A stretch of 30,026 bases of DNA from a virus: IMG/VR virus record IMGVR_UViG_3300035698_014631, positions 1 through 30,026 of that record; one strand, 5' to 3'. Under the pieces are notes generated by a model, which made no database searches, was not told the origin of the DNA, and was given only the letters and a program-made list of their open reading frames with translations. Of this stretch, positions 4,801 through 14,417 are shown one piece after another (within the stretch, counting starts at the first letter, position 1; every line of letters begins with the position of its first letter). A program made the translations under genes and the position numbers.

Positions 4801-7800
4801 CGCCTTGCCCGCCCATTTCTCCGCCAAGCAATTGAGCTTTCTTTCTTAGAGTTTCTCTTCTGGCTTTGGCTAGTTTTACTGCTTTACTGTCTCCAGCTTC
4901 TTTTTCAGCTTTTTCAGAGCCTTCTGCAAGAGCAGAACAGCTTGACTCGTCTTCAAGTCCATCGTCTTCAAGTCCGCCGTCCTCATTTGCTGGATCGACA
5001 TCGACATCATTTTCGAAATCATCAGCGAAATCGAACCCTTCGACATCGACATCGTCTTCTGAACCTTCGGTGCCTTCTCCTACCTCAACAATGAGAGCCC
5101 CAGAGCCCTTATCAAACTTGATAGAGATCAATTCAAGGCTGTCATCTTCTGCAAACATTTGGGCTTTCTTCTTACATGCCTGAACAACAGACTGTCTGTT
5201 GCTAAAGTCTGCATCGATATCATCTTTTGTCATTTGAACTCGAACGCCATCGAGGGCTTCAAGGGCATCAGAGATAGCAGCGGCCTTAGTAACCTTGCCT
5301 CCAATTGTCCCATCGCTTCCAGCCAATGCATCAGAAGCAAGCTTCTCTGCTTTGGCCAATGCATTAGCATTGTTTAGGACGCTAGAGACAGCGTCAATAA
5401 GGTCGTCAGATCGAAGTCCAGATACTCCTGCTTGAGCAGAAGCCAATATCAAGGCGTCGAGATTGTCAACAACTGGATGGGTAGAAGCTTTCTTCAAGAA
5501 GTATTGAGATTTGCTAGCAAAAGCTTCTCTACTCTTATTTTTGGTTGGCAAGGAGTTGATAAGAATAGCCTTAGCTGCTTTATCTCTTTTCTTGCTATTA
5601 TCTGTAATAGATTCAGCAGTAGCTCTTAGTTCATCTGGAGTTTTTCCATATGAAGAAATAGCATTTGCAATTGCCTGAGTCGCTGCCTTGACAAGCTTTC
5701 TTGAGTATCCTGCGGATGCCCATCGGCTAATACCCCAATCTTGCCCCTTGAGTTGGTCTTCGGTAATTGTTTCATATGAACCAACAAACACATGGTTATC
5801 AAGAAGGTCGCTTAGCTGAGCATCGGTAATCCTTTCGGTCCAGTCGCTTGGAAGTTCAGCATGAACATCCTTAGAGAAGTCTGTCCACTGTTTTTCAGTG
5901 ATGACTTCGGGAATACTATTCCATCTGACAATTTCGTTGCCAGCAGCGGTAGCAAGCTGATCTTCGGTGATTGTTTCATAAGAGCCCTTTCTGTTCTGAG
6001 GAGAATCAGATGTGGTATCTTTCATCGCTAGAGATTCATCTCCAAGCTGGTCTTGCGTAATCGTTTCATACGAATCACTTGTTCTAGGATGCAAGGTTGG
6101 AGCATTCTTGTTGAACTGCTTTTCTGTAATGGCTTCTTGCTGAGAAGCATCTCCTCCCCCCTGCGGTCCAACTTGAGCGGTCTTTTGATTATCTGTCATT
6201 TTGTTAGACTCCTTAACCTGTCTATTTAGAATTTGAGAAGCAGCTTCCTTTGGATTTTGCTTGTAAGATTCTTGCCAATCTTCTGGCATATCTTCCAGTC
6301 TCGAAACCGAGATAATTTTATCTCCAGAAGCTTCTGTGATAAATTCCTCATCAACCATAACGTTTCGGCTTTCGGGGTCATTTTCATTCGCCCAAACATG
6401 TATGCAGGATTTTGCCACTTTATTAGCTCCTTTTAAATTTGTTTGTAATTTGAGGTTTCTTTCTCTCAAGTTCCATGCTTTTTTATAAAAATCCTTCTTT
6501 TCTTTCAAAAAAGAGGCGGATGCTGGCTTCGTAACAGAACTTAGTCCATTGAGTAGTTCTGTAGTAGAAGTATTTCCATTGTTTGTAGTTGTGACAGGGG
6601 TTTGTCCTTGTTCCATTCCTATCGGCTGTTTTTCATCCATTAAAGGAGCAGCCGTATCAATAGAGGCCTGTCCAGTTGCCTTAACATCTGGAGGGCTTGG
6701 CAGGTTGGAATATCCCATTTCTGTTAGTTCATCAACGGTTTCTTGTATTTTTTGCATTGCCTCAACAATATCGGATACAAATTCCAAATCGACATGGTCT
6801 TTCTGAGAGAGCATGCTCTTTGTTACACTTTCCATGTTTTCCATAGAAGACTTGAGAAGATCAATTTCTACCCTGCCTGCTTCTTTGAGGGCATCTCTGT
6901 TTTGAGAAAGCTTAATAATAGAATCTTTAAGCTTCGCTACTTTTTTAGTCATTTCTCCAGTGTGAAGAATACAAGAAACGCCGCAGTCATGGCAGGCGGG
7001 ATTGACAACAAAAGAGTTCTCAATGAACTTGAGGCCATAGTTGTACTCAAATACGCTTTCCTCATCATGCTCAATAGAAGCTCTGTTTTCTTTAGAGCAT
7101 TTACATACAGGGCAGTCACCCTCTGGGTTTCCGGGGCTATCATGGAACTTACATGGCATTTTGCCGCTGAATTTTCTTGTTTTGCTATTTTTGATATGAG
7201 AACAATAGTCATCTGCCGTGTATGCTTTGTTGTGGCAGATTGAGCAACAACTATGGTCCACACTACATCCCATTGATGTATTGCTTACAGCCAAATGATT
7301 GACGCAGTAAGTATGGTCATCTTCTACTTCTATGTCATATACAGTGCCATTGTAATCTTTTTCTTCTACATTTTTTACTCTCCTGAGAGTAAAGTTTTCT
7401 AAAGAGTGCCAGTCAGCAGCATTATTTTTACTCGTGTCTGCTTTTTTATATAGCAATCTATCTCTAAAAAAGTCAGGTACAGTTTTTGTTCCGAATGTTA
7501 CTTCGTGTACCGGCTTGTATCCCCATCTCCCATTTTCTTCAGTGATTACTTTGTAGTTTGTTCTTACTCCTATTTTTTCTAATAGAATTCGAAGTTGGCT
7601 TGTTAGTTTTTCTCCTACTATTCCAAACCCATAGCTTTTTTTCTTTACATTATATCCATCGCCTTCCATAAATCCGGCTAACAAAGATGCTGTTTTCTCT
7701 TTGCTAAGCTTCATCAATTTTTCATTGAGAATTTTTCCATCGCTATATTCTCCGCAACGCTCATAAAACCAGCTAGCTACATCTTTCCCGTAAAGAGAAA

Positions 7801-8916
7801 CCCTCGATTGTGATGCTTCGGGATAGTAGTTTACGGTGGGACTATTTCTGTGTGATGCAAATACGCTTTTTAGTTTTTCTTCACAATGAAATGCCAATGT
7901 TTCTAGTTCTGTATGAGCAAAACTAAAGATTGCGGCGTGGCGTTCGCCTTTTCTCTTTTCGTAGCTTCCTTCGGCAAGAAAGAGTCCGATTAAAAATGCT
8001 TCTTCTTCCGAAACATAATCATCGCAACTTTCATCAATAAACTTGGGCTCTACTAAAAAGTCTCCATCTTTGAGTTCATATGCTTTTATTTTTTGTATAT
8101 GTTCGTGGTTGAACTCTGGGGCTTCTCCCCTTGCATTATGACCAGTTTTGAATTTCCTATTGAACGTTTTTGCCGTTATTCTAGCGTCTTTTTTTATCGC
8201 CAATTCTTCTTCGCAACCGCAAGCACAAATTTCTGGAAGCCTGTAAACCATAATATTGTGATGAGAAGTACATACAAGTGGGGTTTTCAGGCCCTCAACC
8301 TTGATAGAAAGCAGAGGGAAGTTATATCCTCTTTGCCTAATGCCTAATACTCTTTTGATATTTCCTTTACCAGAAATTACCTCATCACCATCTTCAATAT
8401 CACATATGTTTTTTCTGTTCCATCTGCCATTAGAACAGGGGCATCCGGCGGGAAACATCCAGTAGCATATCCTTCTTCAATACTCCGTGCCAATCTGGGG
8501 TACGCAGCCTTGTCTACTTTTGCAATGATAAAAATGCCTTGAGCTTCTTTGTCATACCAAGAGTGTACGCAGTTGCCTTTTGCTCGCTCAATATCATCAT
8601 TTTCGTGATTTGTAAAGATAGGGACTCCGACAAATGTATCAGCAGATTTTTTCAGTTCTGCTGCCGAGAAATAGTCTCCATTGTCATTTATCTCATCTTC
8701 TTTGATTGCAAAAATCTTTACATACAGATGTTCGGGGTTCTTCTCAATAGCAGCTTCGAGATCAAACCCGCACAAATCTTCTGATTTGTTGTCTTTTGAT
8801 ATAGATGCCGTTTTTTTCAAAGAGCTTAAGTTTATCTCACCCCAATTGTTTGGGGTATTGAGAGCAACAATGCTCTTTTTTGTATTTTCACTTGTAGCTT
8901 GTTTTTTGAAAGCCAT
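1886..8916 (-). CDS. Prohead protease fused to a giant scaffold-like region; intein-interrupted, with a -1 frame break
   Basis: The gene starts at ATG 8916 (Shine-Dalgarno AGAGGA). Residues 60-153 match the herpes-assemblin/HK97-type prohead protease fold: FTNHEND carries the likely catalytic His104, and after the intein the extein resumes as TSMGCSV, whose Ser fits the catalytic S-x-G motif. A Cys-rich stretch follows (SVDHSCCSICHNKA, CPVCKC, CHDC). The rest is long, acidic and low in complexity, with six ITExQL-type and six GHE repeats and a CPVC...CNNC zinc ribbon, as expected of a scaffold or core. The first frame ends at 8377, and the second is open from upstream of 8458 to 1886. They join by a -1 shift in the A-run at 8409-8414. 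After shift and splicing the product would be about 1,950 residues, very long for a protease. The protease call is strong. The scaffold role is inferred from position and composition. Confidence 0.8.
2325..2910 (-). repeat. Six [LIM]-G-H-E peptide repeats in the scaffold C-terminal region
   Basis: The copies are SLIGHEGES, ARMGHESDS, GTMGHEDEV, GSLGHEEAF, SMMGHENET and ALMGHEEGS. They are separated by about 20 to 90 residues of disordered acidic sequence. Most are followed by Asp/Glu/Ser-rich residues. Confidence 0.9.
5750..6134 (-). repeat. Six degenerate E-x-I-T-[ED]-x-Q-[LFW] peptide repeats in the scaffold region
   Basis: In coding order the copies are EAITEKQF, ETITQDQL, ETITEDQL, EVITEKQW, ERITDAQL and ETITEDQL. 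Three are preceded by [DG]SY, giving SYETIT[EQ]DQL. Spacing is irregular, so this is a short linear motif repeated within disordered sequence, not a tandem domain. Confidence 0.9.
7280..8457 (-). mobile_element. LAGLIDADG intein in the prohead protease, out of frame by one base
   Basis: Splicing block A begins with Cys1 (CFPPDAPVLMADGTEK), block B has LVCTSHHNIM (Thr and His), and block F/G reads VYDIEVEDDHTYCVNHLAVSN with terminal Asn followed by Thr+1. The usual penultimate His is Ser. Two LAGLIDADG helices of a homing endonuclease are present: LIGLFLAEG and LLAGFMEGDG. With one extra base in the A-run at 8409-8414 the element is 393 residues long. The insertion point is one residue before the predicted catalytic Ser of the protease, a typical intein target because the site is conserved. 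As sequenced, the frame breaks about 16 residues into the intein. Confidence 0.93.
8409..8414 (-). other. A6 run where the protease/intein frame shifts by -1
   Basis: The coding strand reads ACA GAA AAA ACA TAT. Continuing in this frame gives a stop after 10 more codons. A -1 slip of the AAA codon gives GAA AAA AAC ATA TGT, which restores the conserved intein block A (DGTEKNICDIEDGDEVI). It is not a canonical two-tRNA slippery heptamer in this phase. A natural indel or a missed base in the homopolymer would look the same. Confidence 0.75.
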
Positions 8917-9498: not shown

Positions 9499-9915
9499 TT
9501 ACCCTTTCATATGTCGAGGGATATCTATGTTCGTTAGCTCCCTAGCGTGATAGTTTTGTTGACCCCTTGGGAAAGGAACGGCCCACTTATCTTGAGCGTG
9601 AGATAAGGCCGCATTCATGCTCATAAAATAATCGCCATAGGGAGCGTATACTTTTGCTTCGGGGTCATCAGGTAGTTTTTTTATTCCAGCAAAGAATCTT
9701 TTATGGTCTCCCTGAGTTATAGCAGGTCCAACAACAACAAAATAATCTGAGTTTGTTGTATAATCATGACCCTCCCATCGGATGTATGCTCCCGGCCCAA
9801 TCTGAGAATCAAACCTCTCTTTCAGGGGTTGACTTTTTTCTCGATATTGTTCATTCCAATCAATACCTCTGTCCTTGATTCTTGTTCTGCCTGCTTTCTT
9901 GTAGTTGTATTTCAT
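9499..9915 (-). CDS. Hypothetical protein following the portal (138 residues)
   Basis: The ATG at 9915 overlaps the portal stop codon as TAATG, so translation is probably coupled to the portal. The N-terminus is strongly basic (MKYNYKKAGRTRIKDRG). The rest is a compact mixed sequence with many aromatics (YIRWEGHDY, DYFVVVGPAIT, KVYAPYGDYFMSMNAALSHAQDKWAVPFP). I do not recognise the family. Tight coupling suggests a partner of the portal or another head-neck component, which is inference. Confidence 0.82.
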   Translation of the reverse strand: MKYNYKKAGRTRIKDRGIDWNEQYREKSQPLKERFDSQIGPGAYIRWEGHDYTTNSDYFVVVGPAITQGDHKRFFAGIKKLPDDPEAKVYAPYGDYFMSMNAALSHAQDKWAVPFPRGQQNYHARELTNIDIPRHMKG

Positions 9916-12900
9916 TAGTCAGTCCCCACTTCAATGACATATCCTAAGCTGCCGTAATCAACAATGTTGTACAGCATGTCTTTTGCAAACTCTGGTCTCG
10001 AAACAGATTGCATGGAATTTGCCAGCTTTATTAGATTATTTTCATCGCCGGATGCCTTCTTGATGCTCTTTACTGCTTCTTGTACATTTTGATATATAAT
10101 GCTCTTTACAGAGTCAATGTGGTCTTCAATTGCATTTTCATCAAATCTCAAAATTCTCCATCCAACATTCGCAAGCTTTTGATCTCTCATCTGGTCTCTT
10201 TGCTTGAGGTCATTTCTTTGGTGCCATATGGCACCATCTGCTTCGACGCCTAGTGCAATTTCTGGAAAAGCAAAATCAATAACATACGGCTGTTTGTGTC
10301 CGGGTAGATTTACTGTATATTGTCCAAAAAGCTTATATGGAATATTAGCAGACTTGATAGCATTTAGCGTCTTTGCTTCTAGAGCAGTGAGCTTCAATTG
10401 GCTTGGCTGTGGAACTTCTTCTTCGCTTTCTTTTTTCTGTTTTCCCTTTTTCATAATGCGAGGAAGTTGTTCTGCTCCGGCTTCCATGCCTCCCATTCCG
10501 CCGCCACCCATCATATCTCCACCCATCATATCTCCACCCGGCGGTGGAGCCATCGGGTCGCCGCCCGGCGGCGGGGCTCCGCCTCCTCCCATTGGACCTC
10601 CTCCCATTGGACCTCCTCCCATTTCCCCGCCCGGTCCCGGAGGCTGTTGCTGAATCATTCCGGCACTGTTTGTAAGGACAGATTCTTCTCTCTTCCTTTC
10701 TATTTCTGTGTCGTAATCCAAATCTATATATTCAAGAAGCGTTCTTTCAGAAACAATTTCTTTATCATGTAGCTGAGCAATGAACTGAGCCATCTGAGTT
10801 TTATCTCTCAGGTTCAGGTCTTCCCATTTGAGCTTTGGGTATAGGTATACTGTTTTTCCAATCCTTTTAGACTTCTCTTCATCAACAAAACCCTGCATCA
10901 TGGCAACAGGCTCAAAGATTCTTTTCTCAACCCATTTTTTAAGCTTGTTTCTCCAGCTTTCTAGCCTTCTCAATAAAACTTCAACTCCAACAGCAGCAGA
11001 ACTGTATGAAGACATTTCTCCATTCAGCAATGCTTGGTTGAGCATGAGTCCATCCAATATCTCTTTTCCTATTTGCTCAACTTCAGCAGTAATATTGTGT
11101 ATTCTGCCTGTGTTTCCCTGAATAGCAATCCTTCCGTTTCTCTCGGTTACAAAGAATCCTGTTGAGGTTTCGAAACACCAAACCTTGCCTTTGTATGGAA
11201 GGAAGGATATGTGATTGTCTTTTACTCTCGAAAAACGCCCTTTGCCGTCGCCAGTCATGTTGCAGCTTATTACATATTGTTTGGATTCTTTTTTGAATCT
11301 ACTGATAGTAGGAGCATATCCAGCTTTAAATAATATCTCCAGTAAATCATGTGCCAACTGCTTGCTGTTTGTTCCAGCTTGCATATAATTTGTGTTTTTA
11401 AAGTATTGTCTGCTTCCGTCTCCGTTTATGTATGACTCAATAAGGATATCGAGTTTTTCTTTTTCCAAGTTTTTTATAAAGCTTGGGATACGCTTGCTAG
11501 AAGATGAAGAGCCAAACATGTTTTTTATTTCTTTGACAATATCCTTTCTCAATATGTCCCATGTTGTAGCCCTTCCATCATATTCATATTTGTGAAAATC
11601 AAAACCAAGACTGGACATGTTGTCATCTATATCTTCACAGTAAATAGGATTTTTTACTGGACATTGAGATATGGATGTTCGATATTGTCTTTTTTCAGAA
11701 TTAAAAACAGAGTATCCTTCAGATATATAATATCCTGCAAATTTCAAGAAAGAATCAATAGGAACTTTATATCCGGCAATATCAACATATTCTAAATTAG
11801 ATTCTTGTTTGTAATCAGCAACAGCCCTAATGTACCTGTCACACTCATTTAACTTTACGAAATCTTTTGCTTGCAGGGCATATCCAGTTGACTTGTCTCT
11901 TTTGTATCCCAACATAGTGTGGTTTGGAGTTATACAAATGTCTGATTTTTGTCCTTCAATACTTACCATAAAATCATTGTAGTCATAGTCATGAAAAGCA
12001 AGAGGGCTTTCGTATCTGGATTCTCCTGTCTCTGAGTCGAATACCAATATTTGCAAATCTTCTATGGCGACTCCCTCGTTCATCACCTTTTTTAATTCAC
12101 TATATGTCATATGGCCTCGTTCTTTCTCAAAAAATGAGGTTTTTTCATCATAGCAAGCTCCATGCCAATCGTAGTCAAACGCATGGTGAGTAACAATGGT
12201 TAGGTTCGGGTCGTTGGTCACGTTGGATAGCTGATTAACTACATCTTGAATGTCATCAGGAGTGGCAGGTCTGTCCTTGTCTCCAACCTTCACAACTCTA
12301 ATGGGCAAAATCAGTCTTTCAGCGACGATCCAGTTCGCTGTCATCAATTTTGTTTTGTAAGCAAGGACTGTAAAAAGCCTTCTTAGCAAGGAGTTTCCGT
12401 ATGTTCCATACCCTGATGGATTATGCTTCAGATGGCTTACGCATCTGTTGGATAGCTTGATTGGTCTCCCGGTAAGAGCGGCTTCTATAACGCTGGGATC
12501 GAGATTTTGATAAATGTGGGTAGGGTATTTTTGCTGAACTATTCTTTTCAGTTCTTCGTCTGGGCGAAGCATAATCACGGGTTCCCCAGCCAGAACATTG
12601 TCTTCTACATCAATGTAGTCTGGGTTTAGAACTCTAATAGATTTGAATGTCCCGTTAGCATGGGTCGATTTTTCTCCATCCTTTAGAACTTTTTCTCCTC
12701 TGGTCTCTGGAGAGTCAATCTCTAAGAATGGATATACATCTCCAATCATAAAGTAGTCATGGCTGATAATTTTCAACCATTCTTCTAAATCAAGATCATC
12801 AACCAGTTGTTCGTAAAACTCTAGAATTGTTCTATCTGGGCATTCTAGTTTGAAGCCGTTGATTGGGAAATATGCATAGAAGTCTATGCCTGCTCCTACC

Positions 12901-14417
12901 TTCGGCTCGTTCTCATAATAGAAGCGGCAGTTAGAAATTGAAAAACCAGAAGATACAAACGTCCTTTCTGGGTCAATTTGAAGGTCATATCCTTTTCCTG
13001 TGTGAAAGAACTCTCGAATTTTGCTGATAGGTTGTGCTAGATAGCTTACCCCATTCTCTTCGTATATGAACCTGAGTTCTCTTTGAGTTTTTGGACTGAA
13101 AGAACTAGGTATCTTATTGCTCCTCATGTATGGTTGAAGCTTAGGAACCTCAGAAGAAGGAATGGTTATTCGATAGCAGCATTCACTGCTTGTTTCAAAA
13201 TGATCTCCATACAAAGGTATTTTATTCAAAGATGCGTTTATGCCAACAGAAAGAAGCATAGAATATATCTGATCAGCCATATCGCATGAATAATTATTTG
13301 CGATTAGCTTTGTACTGACTGGATTGAAGTGTCCGTCTCCATCAAAGTATCCGCCTAAAACATGTAGCCGAGATTCTTTATCTAGCTCTAGTATATTTTT
13401 TGTAAATTTCTTTTTAGATAATTTTCCAGAAATATATTTATCAAAAAACAACCAAGCTTTTTTGCTATATTTTGAAACTCTTTTTCCTCGACCTTCTCCG
13501 TGCTTCCTTTCTCCAACATGCTCCCCCCATTCATGCTCGGATAAACAGGAAACAAGTTCCTCTGAATGGTGCTCATCTTGATCCATTGTAAAATGAACGC
13601 TACGAGCATATATTTCTTTGCTAATACAGCCATCTGCTATGCAAACTCCGATCATCCATGCCTTATCTTCATCTATAGATTTGATTCCGGCTTGTACTAT
13701 GGGGGTAAGTAAATAATCTTTTTTGCTTACTGTTTGGGCTTCTTTTTTAGTTATTAGAGATTCGGGGATTTTTACTTTTTTTACTCCATTTGACTTTACT
13801 CCCTTTTTTTCTCTATATTCTTTACTTGATTCTATTTTTTTCTTCTTTCTATACATTTCCCCATCTAGAACGACTATTTTGTGTTCTTCGGAAACCTGAA
13901 CCTCTCTCCAGTAACCATGTGCAGATATCCCAAAGCATCTTTTATTTTTGCAATCTCTGGCAGAAAAATGCACAGGATTTCTTAGGTTTCCCTCTCCTGA
14001 AACAATGGCTTCTGATTCGATATTCTGATAAAGAAGGCCTCCAGTTATGACGTCTTCAATTATATCATCTGTATAAAAAGGAAAATCCTCAATAGGAACA
14101 TATGTCCCATCTTCTTGCAAAAGTTCTTGGCCCGGAAGATTTAGCCACTGATAGACCTCAAATCTCTTCGACGCAATTTGCCAGTTTTGGGGCGTGTGCA
14201 TAGGAGAAAAGAACATTGGTTGCGTAAAAACAACGTTTGCTCCAGTTCCAGTGAATTGAGCACTTTTTGTAATATCCATATGAACGGATTTTGCTCCGCC
14301 ATATTTTTTATCTATTGATCCGGTTTTGTTTAAAGGAGACATTGTTCCGCTAGAAACGATGTTCTTGCCTCTATTGGCGTCTCCGGGATTGGGAGTATTC
14401 ATTTTGATGGTTGCCAT
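9915..14417 (-). CDS. Portal protein with two inteins and a C-terminal Vsr/DUF559-type nuclease domain
   Basis: The portal ring is the DNA entry channel and docks terminase. The extein parts show the portal pattern: W91 joins CRFYYENEPKVGAGIDFY, followed by LEEWLKIISHDYFMIGDVYPF, GYGTYGNSLLRRLFTVLAYK, then KKWVEKRIFEPVAMMQGF and YLYPKLKWEDLNLRDKTQMA. The 1,500 residues contain an intein at 92-496 and another at 755-1102, leaving 747 residues after splicing. A Gly/Met/Pro-rich linker (about 1260-1315) leads to a nuclease-like domain (about 1342-1441) with D1381, E1392, D1394, H1399 and GWRILRF. A tail of about 60 residues follows. Start ATG 14417 has Shine-Dalgarno AAGGA. The portal call is firm. 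The fused nuclease is unusual, and its activity is inferred from motifs. Confidence 0.9.
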   Translation of the reverse strand: MATIKMNTPNPGDANRGKNIVSSGTMSPLNKTGSIDKKYGGAKSVHMDITKSAQFTGTGANVVFTQPMFFSPMHTPQNWQIASKRFEVYQWLNLPGQELLQEDGTYVPIEDFPFYTDDIIEDVITGGLLYQNIESEAIVSGEGNLRNPVHFSARDCKNKRCFGISAHGYWREVQVSEEHKIVVLDGEMYRKKKKIESSKEYREKKGVKSNGVKKVKIPESLITKKEAQTVSKKDYLLTPIVQAGIKSIDEDKAWMIGVCIADGCISKEIYARSVHFTMDQDEHHSEELVSCLSEHEWGEHVGERKHGEGRGKRVSKYSKKAWLFFDKYISGKLSKKKFTKNILELDKESRLHVLGGYFDGDGHFNPVSTKLIANNYSCDMADQIYSMLLSVGINASLNKIPLYGDHFETSSECCYRITIPSSEVPKLQPYMRSNKIPSSFSPKTQRELRFIYEENGVSYLAQPISKIREFFHTGKGYDLQIDPERTFVSSGFSISNCRFYYENEPKVGAGIDFYAYFPINGFKLECPDRTILEFYEQLVDDLDLEEWLKIISHDYFMIGDVYPFLEIDSPETRGEKVLKDGEKSTHANGTFKSIRVLNPDYIDVEDNVLAGEPVIMLRPDEELKRIVQQKYPTHIYQNLDPSVIEAALTGRPIKLSNRCVSHLKHNPSGYGTYGNSLLRRLFTVLAYKTKLMTANWIVAERLILPIRVVKVGDKDRPATPDDIQDVVNQLSNVTNDPNLTIVTHHAFDYDWHGACYDEKTSFFEKERGHMTYSELKKVMNEGVAIEDLQILVFDSETGESRYESPLAFHDYDYNDFMVSIEGQKSDICITPNHTMLGYKRDKSTGYALQAKDFVKLNECDRYIRAVADYKQESNLEYVDIAGYKVPIDSFLKFAGYYISEGYSVFNSEKRQYRTSISQCPVKNPIYCEDIDDNMSSLGFDFHKYEYDGRATTWDILRKDIVKEIKNMFGSSSSSKRIPSFIKNLEKEKLDILIESYINGDGSRQYFKNTNYMQAGTNSKQLAHDLLEILFKAGYAPTISRFKKESKQYVISCNMTGDGKGRFSRVKDNHISFLPYKGKVWCFETSTGFFVTERNGRIAIQGNTGRIHNITAEVEQIGKEILDGLMLNQALLNGEMSSYSSAAVGVEVLLRRLESWRNKLKKWVEKRIFEPVAMMQGFVDEEKSKRIGKTVYLYPKLKWEDLNLRDKTQMAQFIAQLHDKEIVSERTLLEYIDLDYDTEIERKREESVLTNSAGMIQQQPPGPGGEMGGGPMGGGPMGGGGAPPPGGDPMAPPPGGDMMGGDMMGGGGMGGMEAGAEQLPRIMKKGKQKKESEEEVPQPSQLKLTALEAKTLNAIKSANIPYKLFGQYTVNLPGHKQPYVIDFAFPEIALGVEADGAIWHQRNDLKQRDQMRDQKLANVGWRILRFDENAIEDHIDSVKSIIYQNVQEAVKSIKKASGDENNLIKLANSMQSVSRPEFAKDMLYNIVDYGSLGYVIEVGTD
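10095..10394 (-). other. Vsr/DUF559-like endonuclease domain within the portal reading frame
   Basis: The segment reads as LTALEAKTLNAI (N-terminal helix with conserved Glu), then YVIDFAFPEIALGVEADGAIW, His, a helix with RDQMRDQKL, and GWRILRF. This is the order of conserved positions in the DUF559/very-short-patch-repair-like branch of PD-(D/E)XK nucleases: D, E-x-D-G, W-H, R-D, L, G-W, R-F. All expected acidic residues are present, so it need not be a dead remnant. Confidence 0.8.
10478..10640 (-). repeat. Gly/Met/Pro-rich linker coded by short 15-base repeats
   Basis: Two copies of catcatatctccacc (plus strand, about 10509-10538) and nearly three of cctcctcccattgga (about 10582-10623) encode GGDMM and GGGPM repeats. 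The local GC content is far above the surroundings. The repeats code for a flexible linker between the portal body and the nuclease-like domain. Confidence 0.85.
11112..12155 (-). mobile_element. Second portal intein, canonical, with LAGLIDADG endonuclease (348 residues)
   Basis: It begins with Cys1 (CYDEKTSFF) directly after extein HGA. Block B is DICITPNHTML, with Thr and His. The endonuclease helices are FAGYYISEG and IESYINGDG. It ends WCFETSTGFFVTERNGRIAIQGN before Thr+1 (TGRIHN). The penultimate residue is Gly instead of His, which is common in phage inteins. All residues needed for class 1 splicing are otherwise present. Confidence 0.93.
12930..14144 (-). mobile_element. First portal intein, LAGLIDADG type, with Leu at position 1 (405 residues)
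   Basis: The insertion lies between W91 and CRFYYENEP of the portal. Block A is LNLPGQELLQEDGTYVPIEDF and aligns without gaps to the protease intein CFPPDAPVLMADGTEK, placing Leu (CTA) where the nucleophilic Cys belongs. Block B is VQVSEEHKIVV (Ser and His179). The endonuclease helices are MIGVCIADG and LGGYFDGDG. The end is YDLQIDPERTFVSSGFSISN followed by Cys+1. Start is 14144 if Leu is residue 1, or 14141 if Asn is. Confidence 0.9.

Follow-up and report, generated by a model that had tools for sequence, protein, structure and literature searches.

In the reviews on which we rely, class 2 inteins are known only from KlbA orthologues, which combine Ala at residue 1 with Ser at position G:6 (PMC4031507; 2020 review PMC7765530); KlbA needs both His B:10 and Asp F:4, with Cys+1 as the direct nucleophile (PMC4031507). 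Among the open-licence papers that we searched, none described class 2-like inteins in phages. Here we describe an intein with Leu at residue 1 in the portal protein gene of our window, i.e., the whole stretch of DNA analyzed (a 30 kb viral contig record; 30,026 nucleotides), together with its relatives in a viral collection.

The portal gene and its Leu1 intein

The features on which the analysis rests are as follows, numbered by position in the window.

9915..14417, minus strand: portal protein gene, carrying two inteins and, C-terminally, a DUF559-like domain (1500-aa ORF, extein similarity)
14145..14417, minus strand: portal N-extein, 91 aa, C-terminal end NWQIASKRFEVYQW, kept in carriers and in intein-free homologues
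14147-14145, minus strand: Trp-1, directly before Leu1
12930..14144, minus strand: portal intein, 405 aa, from Leu1 to Ser-Asn (in-frame insert with LAGLIDADG motifs)
14142..14144, minus strand: residue 1, Leu (CTA), where a Cys/Ser nucleophile is usual (codon and structural alignment)
13881..13883, minus strand: block B His (B:10, His88), invariant in 17/17 (family alignment)
13629..13658, minus strand: LAGLIDADG motif 1, WMIGVCIADG, residues 163-172
13332..13361, minus strand: LAGLIDADG motif 2, VLGGYFDGDG, residues 262-271
12984..12986, minus strand: block F Asp (F:4, Asp387), invariant in 17/17; Cys would be expected here in class 3
12930..12935, minus strand: Ser404 (G:6) and Asn405 (G:7), invariant in 17/17
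12927..12929, minus strand: Cys+1, the proposed direct nucleophile (Cys/Ser in all carriers)
12156..12929, minus strand: portal middle extein, CRFYYENEPK...DYDWHGA (ORF, similarity to viral loci)
11112-12155, minus strand: second portal intein, 348 aa, Cys1 to Gly-Asn, followed by Thr

The portal exteins match 58 viral-contig loci, most of them at 54-66% identity, and are ~32% identical to gp14 of Bacillus phage G, which is annotated as a portal protein. The C-terminal part of the gene (10137-10340, minus strand) has Pfam matches to the DUF559 / MTES_1575 restriction-endonuclease-like families (E=3e-10), and such a fusion of a nuclease-fold domain to a portal is unusual; the portals of loci L002 and L003 have tails resembling this part. 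The site of the second portal intein (GA/xGK) is occupied in L052 and L157 too, and the portal gene of L001 (from 3785) holds at least 4 inteins at different sites, one of them within its DUF559-like tail. The portal of L054 (1811-3028 and following) has two inteins only five extein residues (CRFYQ) apart, with similarly tight spacing between the site of the Leu1 intein and the next intein in L020 and L053.

Evaluation of the insert itself revealed that it meets the intein criterion, with a HINT fold, blocks A, B, F and G, and precise insertion in a host protein. An AlphaFold model of the intein with 14-residue flanks (mean pLDDT 88) shows a LAGLIDADG domain set into a HINT domain, and the intein matches Pfam LAGLIDADG_3 (E=3e-8). 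In structural alignments, the first aligned model residue is 15 (Leu1), paired with residue 1 in each of PI-SceI, PI-PfuI and Mtu RecA and, for hedgehog, with residue 258. Block B reads SEEH, such that Ser85 occupies B:7 and His88 occupies B:10. Sequence searches against solved structures with the portal intein gave matches confined to the endonuclease, and the splicing domain alone as query found nothing relevant among solved structures; the KlbA intein was not among the sequence or fold matches, which is uninformative for homology either way.

A first-pass annotation, made from sequence alone, had placed the intein at 12930-14144 with Leu (CTA) as residue 1, and both held exactly. Its ungapped alignment of block A to the intein of the prohead protease held as well (CFPPDAPVLMADGT / LNLPGQELLQEDGT), as did its block B His, terminal Asn, Cys+1 and two LAGLIDADG motifs, and its statement that no single base error explains the Leu, given that every base of CTA would have to change to give either Cys codon. 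It was silent on the penultimate Ser in place of His, an informative residue. The prohead protease gene (7280-8916, minus strand) carries a canonical Cys1 intein (8457-7280, ending Ser-Asn before Thr) whose N-terminal part lies in a different frame, with the shift in or next to a poly-A run around 8410; this frameshift could be real or could reflect a sequencing error.

The position of the N-terminal junction is shown by portals that lack the intein. The 43 distinct intein-free alleles read NWQIASKRREIYQW, then a single variable residue (Ala in 30, Ser in 7, Cys in 4, Val in 1 and Asn in 1), then RFYYENEPK, so the first inserted residue is the one after Trp, independent of any block A alignment. 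The intein-free portals of L015 and L016 have Val at +1, showing that the portal itself can do without Cys or Ser at this position. An alternative is that the true junction lies a few residues away at a Cys, Ser or Thr and leaves a short tag in the portal, and some relatives do have a Ser or Thr among their first six residues. We regard this as very unlikely and reject it: residues 1-13 of the window intein, like the first eight of L001, include no Cys, Ser or Thr, and intein-free portals have no insertion between W and +1, which fixes the junction between W and L.

A portal-intein family with a freely varying first residue

Scans of the viral collection for relatives at the same site gathered 17 distinct inteins on separate metagenome-derived contigs, the window included, and these form one previously unnoticed phage family of at least 17 members. 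Residue 1 is distributed among them as follows.

Leu (six): window, L055, L065, L075, L117, L157
Gln (two): L001, L003
Thr (two): L050, L054
Met (two): L112, L148
Glu: L022
Lys: L064
Ser: L068
Asp: L069
Val: L074

Residue 1 is thus neither Cys nor Ala in any of the 17 members, and 14/17 have no Cys, Ser or Thr there; the window, with Leu1, does not meet the class 1 criterion. The position has changed at least 10 times on the family tree, also when the first six residues are left out, and lies among the 3.4% most variable alignment columns; L064 (Lys) and L065 (Leu) differ here despite 75% identity. A refutation check proposed in the first-pass annotation, namely that homologues might reveal a true junction elsewhere with a Cys or Ser, was run on the intein-free homologues and on these relatives, and the claim held: the junction is exactly at W/X and no family member has Cys1. 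The suggestion that a bulky first residue is a special feature failed, as residue 1 is simply unconstrained across the family.

Other positions show the opposite pattern. His88 (B:10), Asp387 (F:4), Ser404 (G:6), Asn405 (G:7) and Trp-1 are invariant in 17/17 members, and B:7 is Ser or Thr in 16/17 (His in L003). The +1 residue is Cys in 15/17 and Ser in two (L055 and L157), such that Cys/Ser at +1 is found in 17/17 carriers vs 11/43 intein-free alleles (p=5.5e-8), in which +1 is mostly Ala; for Cys alone, on a 16-member count, the figures are 15/16 carriers vs 4/43 (p=1.4e-9). With Cys or Ser at +1 throughout, the family does not meet the criterion for bacterial intein-like (BIL) elements, i.e., absence of a +1 nucleophile. 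A tblastn search did not find the family in named phages, and a scan of genome contigs gave only one distant partial match (residues 157-274). We also considered the conserved D31-xx-T34-x-G36 as a new catalytic motif and set it aside; its Thr34 column is Ala in one member, and we take it to be the common 'DxxTG' hairpin of inteins.

The same W/X site holds a second set of inteins, in which residue 1 is Ser in 10/10 (L008, L013, L018, L038, L046, L051, L061 and L126 complete; L142 and L146 partial). These form their own clade with 100/100 support. They share the host gene and insertion point with the window family, are alignable to it over the full length at 22-29% identity (22-25% for the three that were aligned with the window intein itself), and have the same invariant His B:10 and Asp F:4. 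Unlike the window family, they have Ser1 throughout, a variable penultimate residue and a terminal Gln, which in the eight complete inteins is followed by Cys or Ser. Because this sister clade keeps Ser1 in 10/10, the free drift of residue 1 belongs to the window clade. We infer from this conservation pattern that, at one site in one protein, one lineage needs a residue-1 nucleophile and the other does not. Kinship with the Ser1 clade makes an independent loss of the nucleophile plausible, a possibility that we leave as such while the root of the tree is not established.

Evidence for maintained function and the proposed splicing route

Given these patterns, we evaluated whether the inteins appear to be maintained. 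Between L050 and L054, dN/dS was 0.06/0.33 for the N-terminal and 0.025/0.34 for the C-terminal splicing region, and 0.21/0.71 for the endonuclease, above the splicing regions. In the latter, nonsynonymous changes are greatly outnumbered by synonymous ones. Two further members have decayed in the endonuclease: L112 (255-1250, minus strand) has lost its first LAGLIDADG motif, and L055 (2909-3997) has a changed second motif plus an internal deletion, with all splicing residues kept in both. The N-extein beside the junction (QPMFFSPLHTPQNWQIASKRREIYQW) is as conserved in carriers as in intein-free portals. Each of 14 carrier contigs has a single portal locus, so the portal gene must be matured, with the caveat that contigs may be incomplete; within the same caveat, none of the 14 holds a further portal copy that could make up for a dead intein. 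Conservation of the N-extein, the +1 Cys/Ser, purifying selection and decay confined to the endonuclease together suggest that the portal intein is functional, which we consider likely in the absence of a splicing assay.

Three alternatives bear on this conclusion. The first is that the intein is a pseudogene or artefact, with the Leu codon an assembly error or the intein dying, and the frameshifted protease intein on the same contig does indicate that errors or decay occur in this record. This is very unlikely considering that three base changes separate CTA from Cys, that the frames are open and under purifying selection in a single portal locus, and that 16 further contigs also lack Cys1, only one of them having Ser1, which refutes an artefact at the family level. 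Second, the insertion might be removed as an RNA intron rather than from the protein. LAGLIDADG endonucleases live in introns too, though no result here favours this reading, and it is all but excluded by the in-frame HINT fold with all splicing blocks and by the lack of any Rfam match in 12700-14417. The third is that there is no full splicing, such that Asn cyclisation (C-cleavage) merely frees the C-extein, and the N-extein is dispensable or works unligated. In favour of this, other inteins can uncouple their C-terminal cleavage (PMC7765530), and all published non-conservative residue-1 changes in class 1 inteins block splicing (PMC3196547). We nonetheless find it unlikely, as the N-extein beside the junction is conserved, His B:10 and Asp F:4 are invariant, and Cys/Ser+1 is strictly kept though useless for C-cleavage alone.

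Our preferred reading, to which we assign a probability of roughly 0.74, is an active intein with a class 2-like splicing route. The data show the sequence, junction, family, conservation pattern, selection and fold; no splicing assay stands behind the route, and every chemical step described below is inferred. The window has the class 2 residue set of Ser404, Asn405, His88, Asp387 and Cys+1, with Ser85 replacing Thr at B:7. Because the family keeps this set without a class 3 triad, the class 2-like route is the best reading. Class 3 itself is rejected, as B:12 is Ile, Met, Leu, Val or Ala and never Trp, F:4 is Asp in 17/17, and G:5 is mixed with no consistent Thr. The first-pass annotation had likewise seen no class 3 set in the window, which held and now extends to all 17 members, and its guess of a class 2-like route is supported and strengthened by the kept KlbA residues, the mechanism remaining an inference.

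In the proposed route, His B:10 (with Ser/Thr B:7 in 16/17) would strain and protonate the peptide bond between Trp-1 and residue 1, and activation of the +1 side chain would fall to Asp F:4. Cys+1, or Ser+1 in two relatives, would then attack that bond directly and take up the N-extein to give a branched (thio)ester. Asn G:7 would cyclise to free the intein, and the ester would rearrange to a peptide bond, yielding a portal that reads ...YQW-CRFYYENEPK.... The residue-1 side chain would have no chemical part and would have drifted freely within the clade. These portal inteins thus probably splice by omitting the usual first chemical step.

Three observations weigh against this route. Ser G:6 occurs in the window's Cys1 protease intein too, so its support is weak; B:7 is His in L003; and Ser+1, as in L055 and L157, is a poorer nucleophile and would, by inference, mean a Ser hydroxyl attacking an amide directly. 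It has also to be weighed against a rival by analogy with class 3, in which an internal hydroxyl or thiol other than an F:4 Cys receives the N-extein before +1. Candidates exist family-wide, the Thr14 (16 Thr, 1 Ser) and Ser404 (17/17) columns being the only ones in the splicing domain with a hydroxyl or thiol side chain in every member. We hold this unlikely: the family has no conserved Cys column, Thr14 sits in an ordinary DG[T/S] turn after block A, and Ser G:6 is shared with the Cys1 protease intein and with KlbA, in which the direct nucleophile is Cys+1 (PMC4031507). A bolder reading, which is possible, is that the family represents a new mechanistic class, phage-borne, from an ancestor with a residue-1 nucleophile, tolerating any residue 1 and without KlbA descent; this would require either a highly activated +1 (Ser or Cys) or an unprecedented internal nucleophile (Ser G:6 or Thr14).

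The 17 diverse relatives, with nine different residue-1 identities and a Ser1 sister clade, amount to a mutational scan made by nature, through which the question can be tested. If the family splices, its members would be useful tools that leave the choice of the intein's first residue free, and some versions may be thiol-independent (Ser+1).

Comparison with known intein classes

Class 1 LAGLIDADG inteins (TliVMA, PI-SceI and PI-PfuI) are like the window intein in their HINT plus endonuclease fold (Z 20-31), and unlike it in using Cys1 and in sharing only ~13-17% sequence identity. Class 3 inteins of the mycobacteriophage Bethlehem DnaB type (WCT) resemble the family in lacking Cys1/Ser1 and in being phage-borne. 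Differences from class 2 KlbA inteins are that the family host is a phage portal, that the LAGLIDADG domain is large, that two members have Ser+1, and that residue 1 is L, Q, T, M, E, K, S, D or V rather than Ala, with no biochemical proof for the family. The archaeal class 2 inteins (M. jannaschii KlbA and orthologues) are like the family in Ser G:6, Asn G:7, His B:10, Asp F:4 and Cys+1, and like the window intein in pairing a non-nucleophilic residue 1 with the absence of a class 3 motif, such that a single-branch route would be expected.
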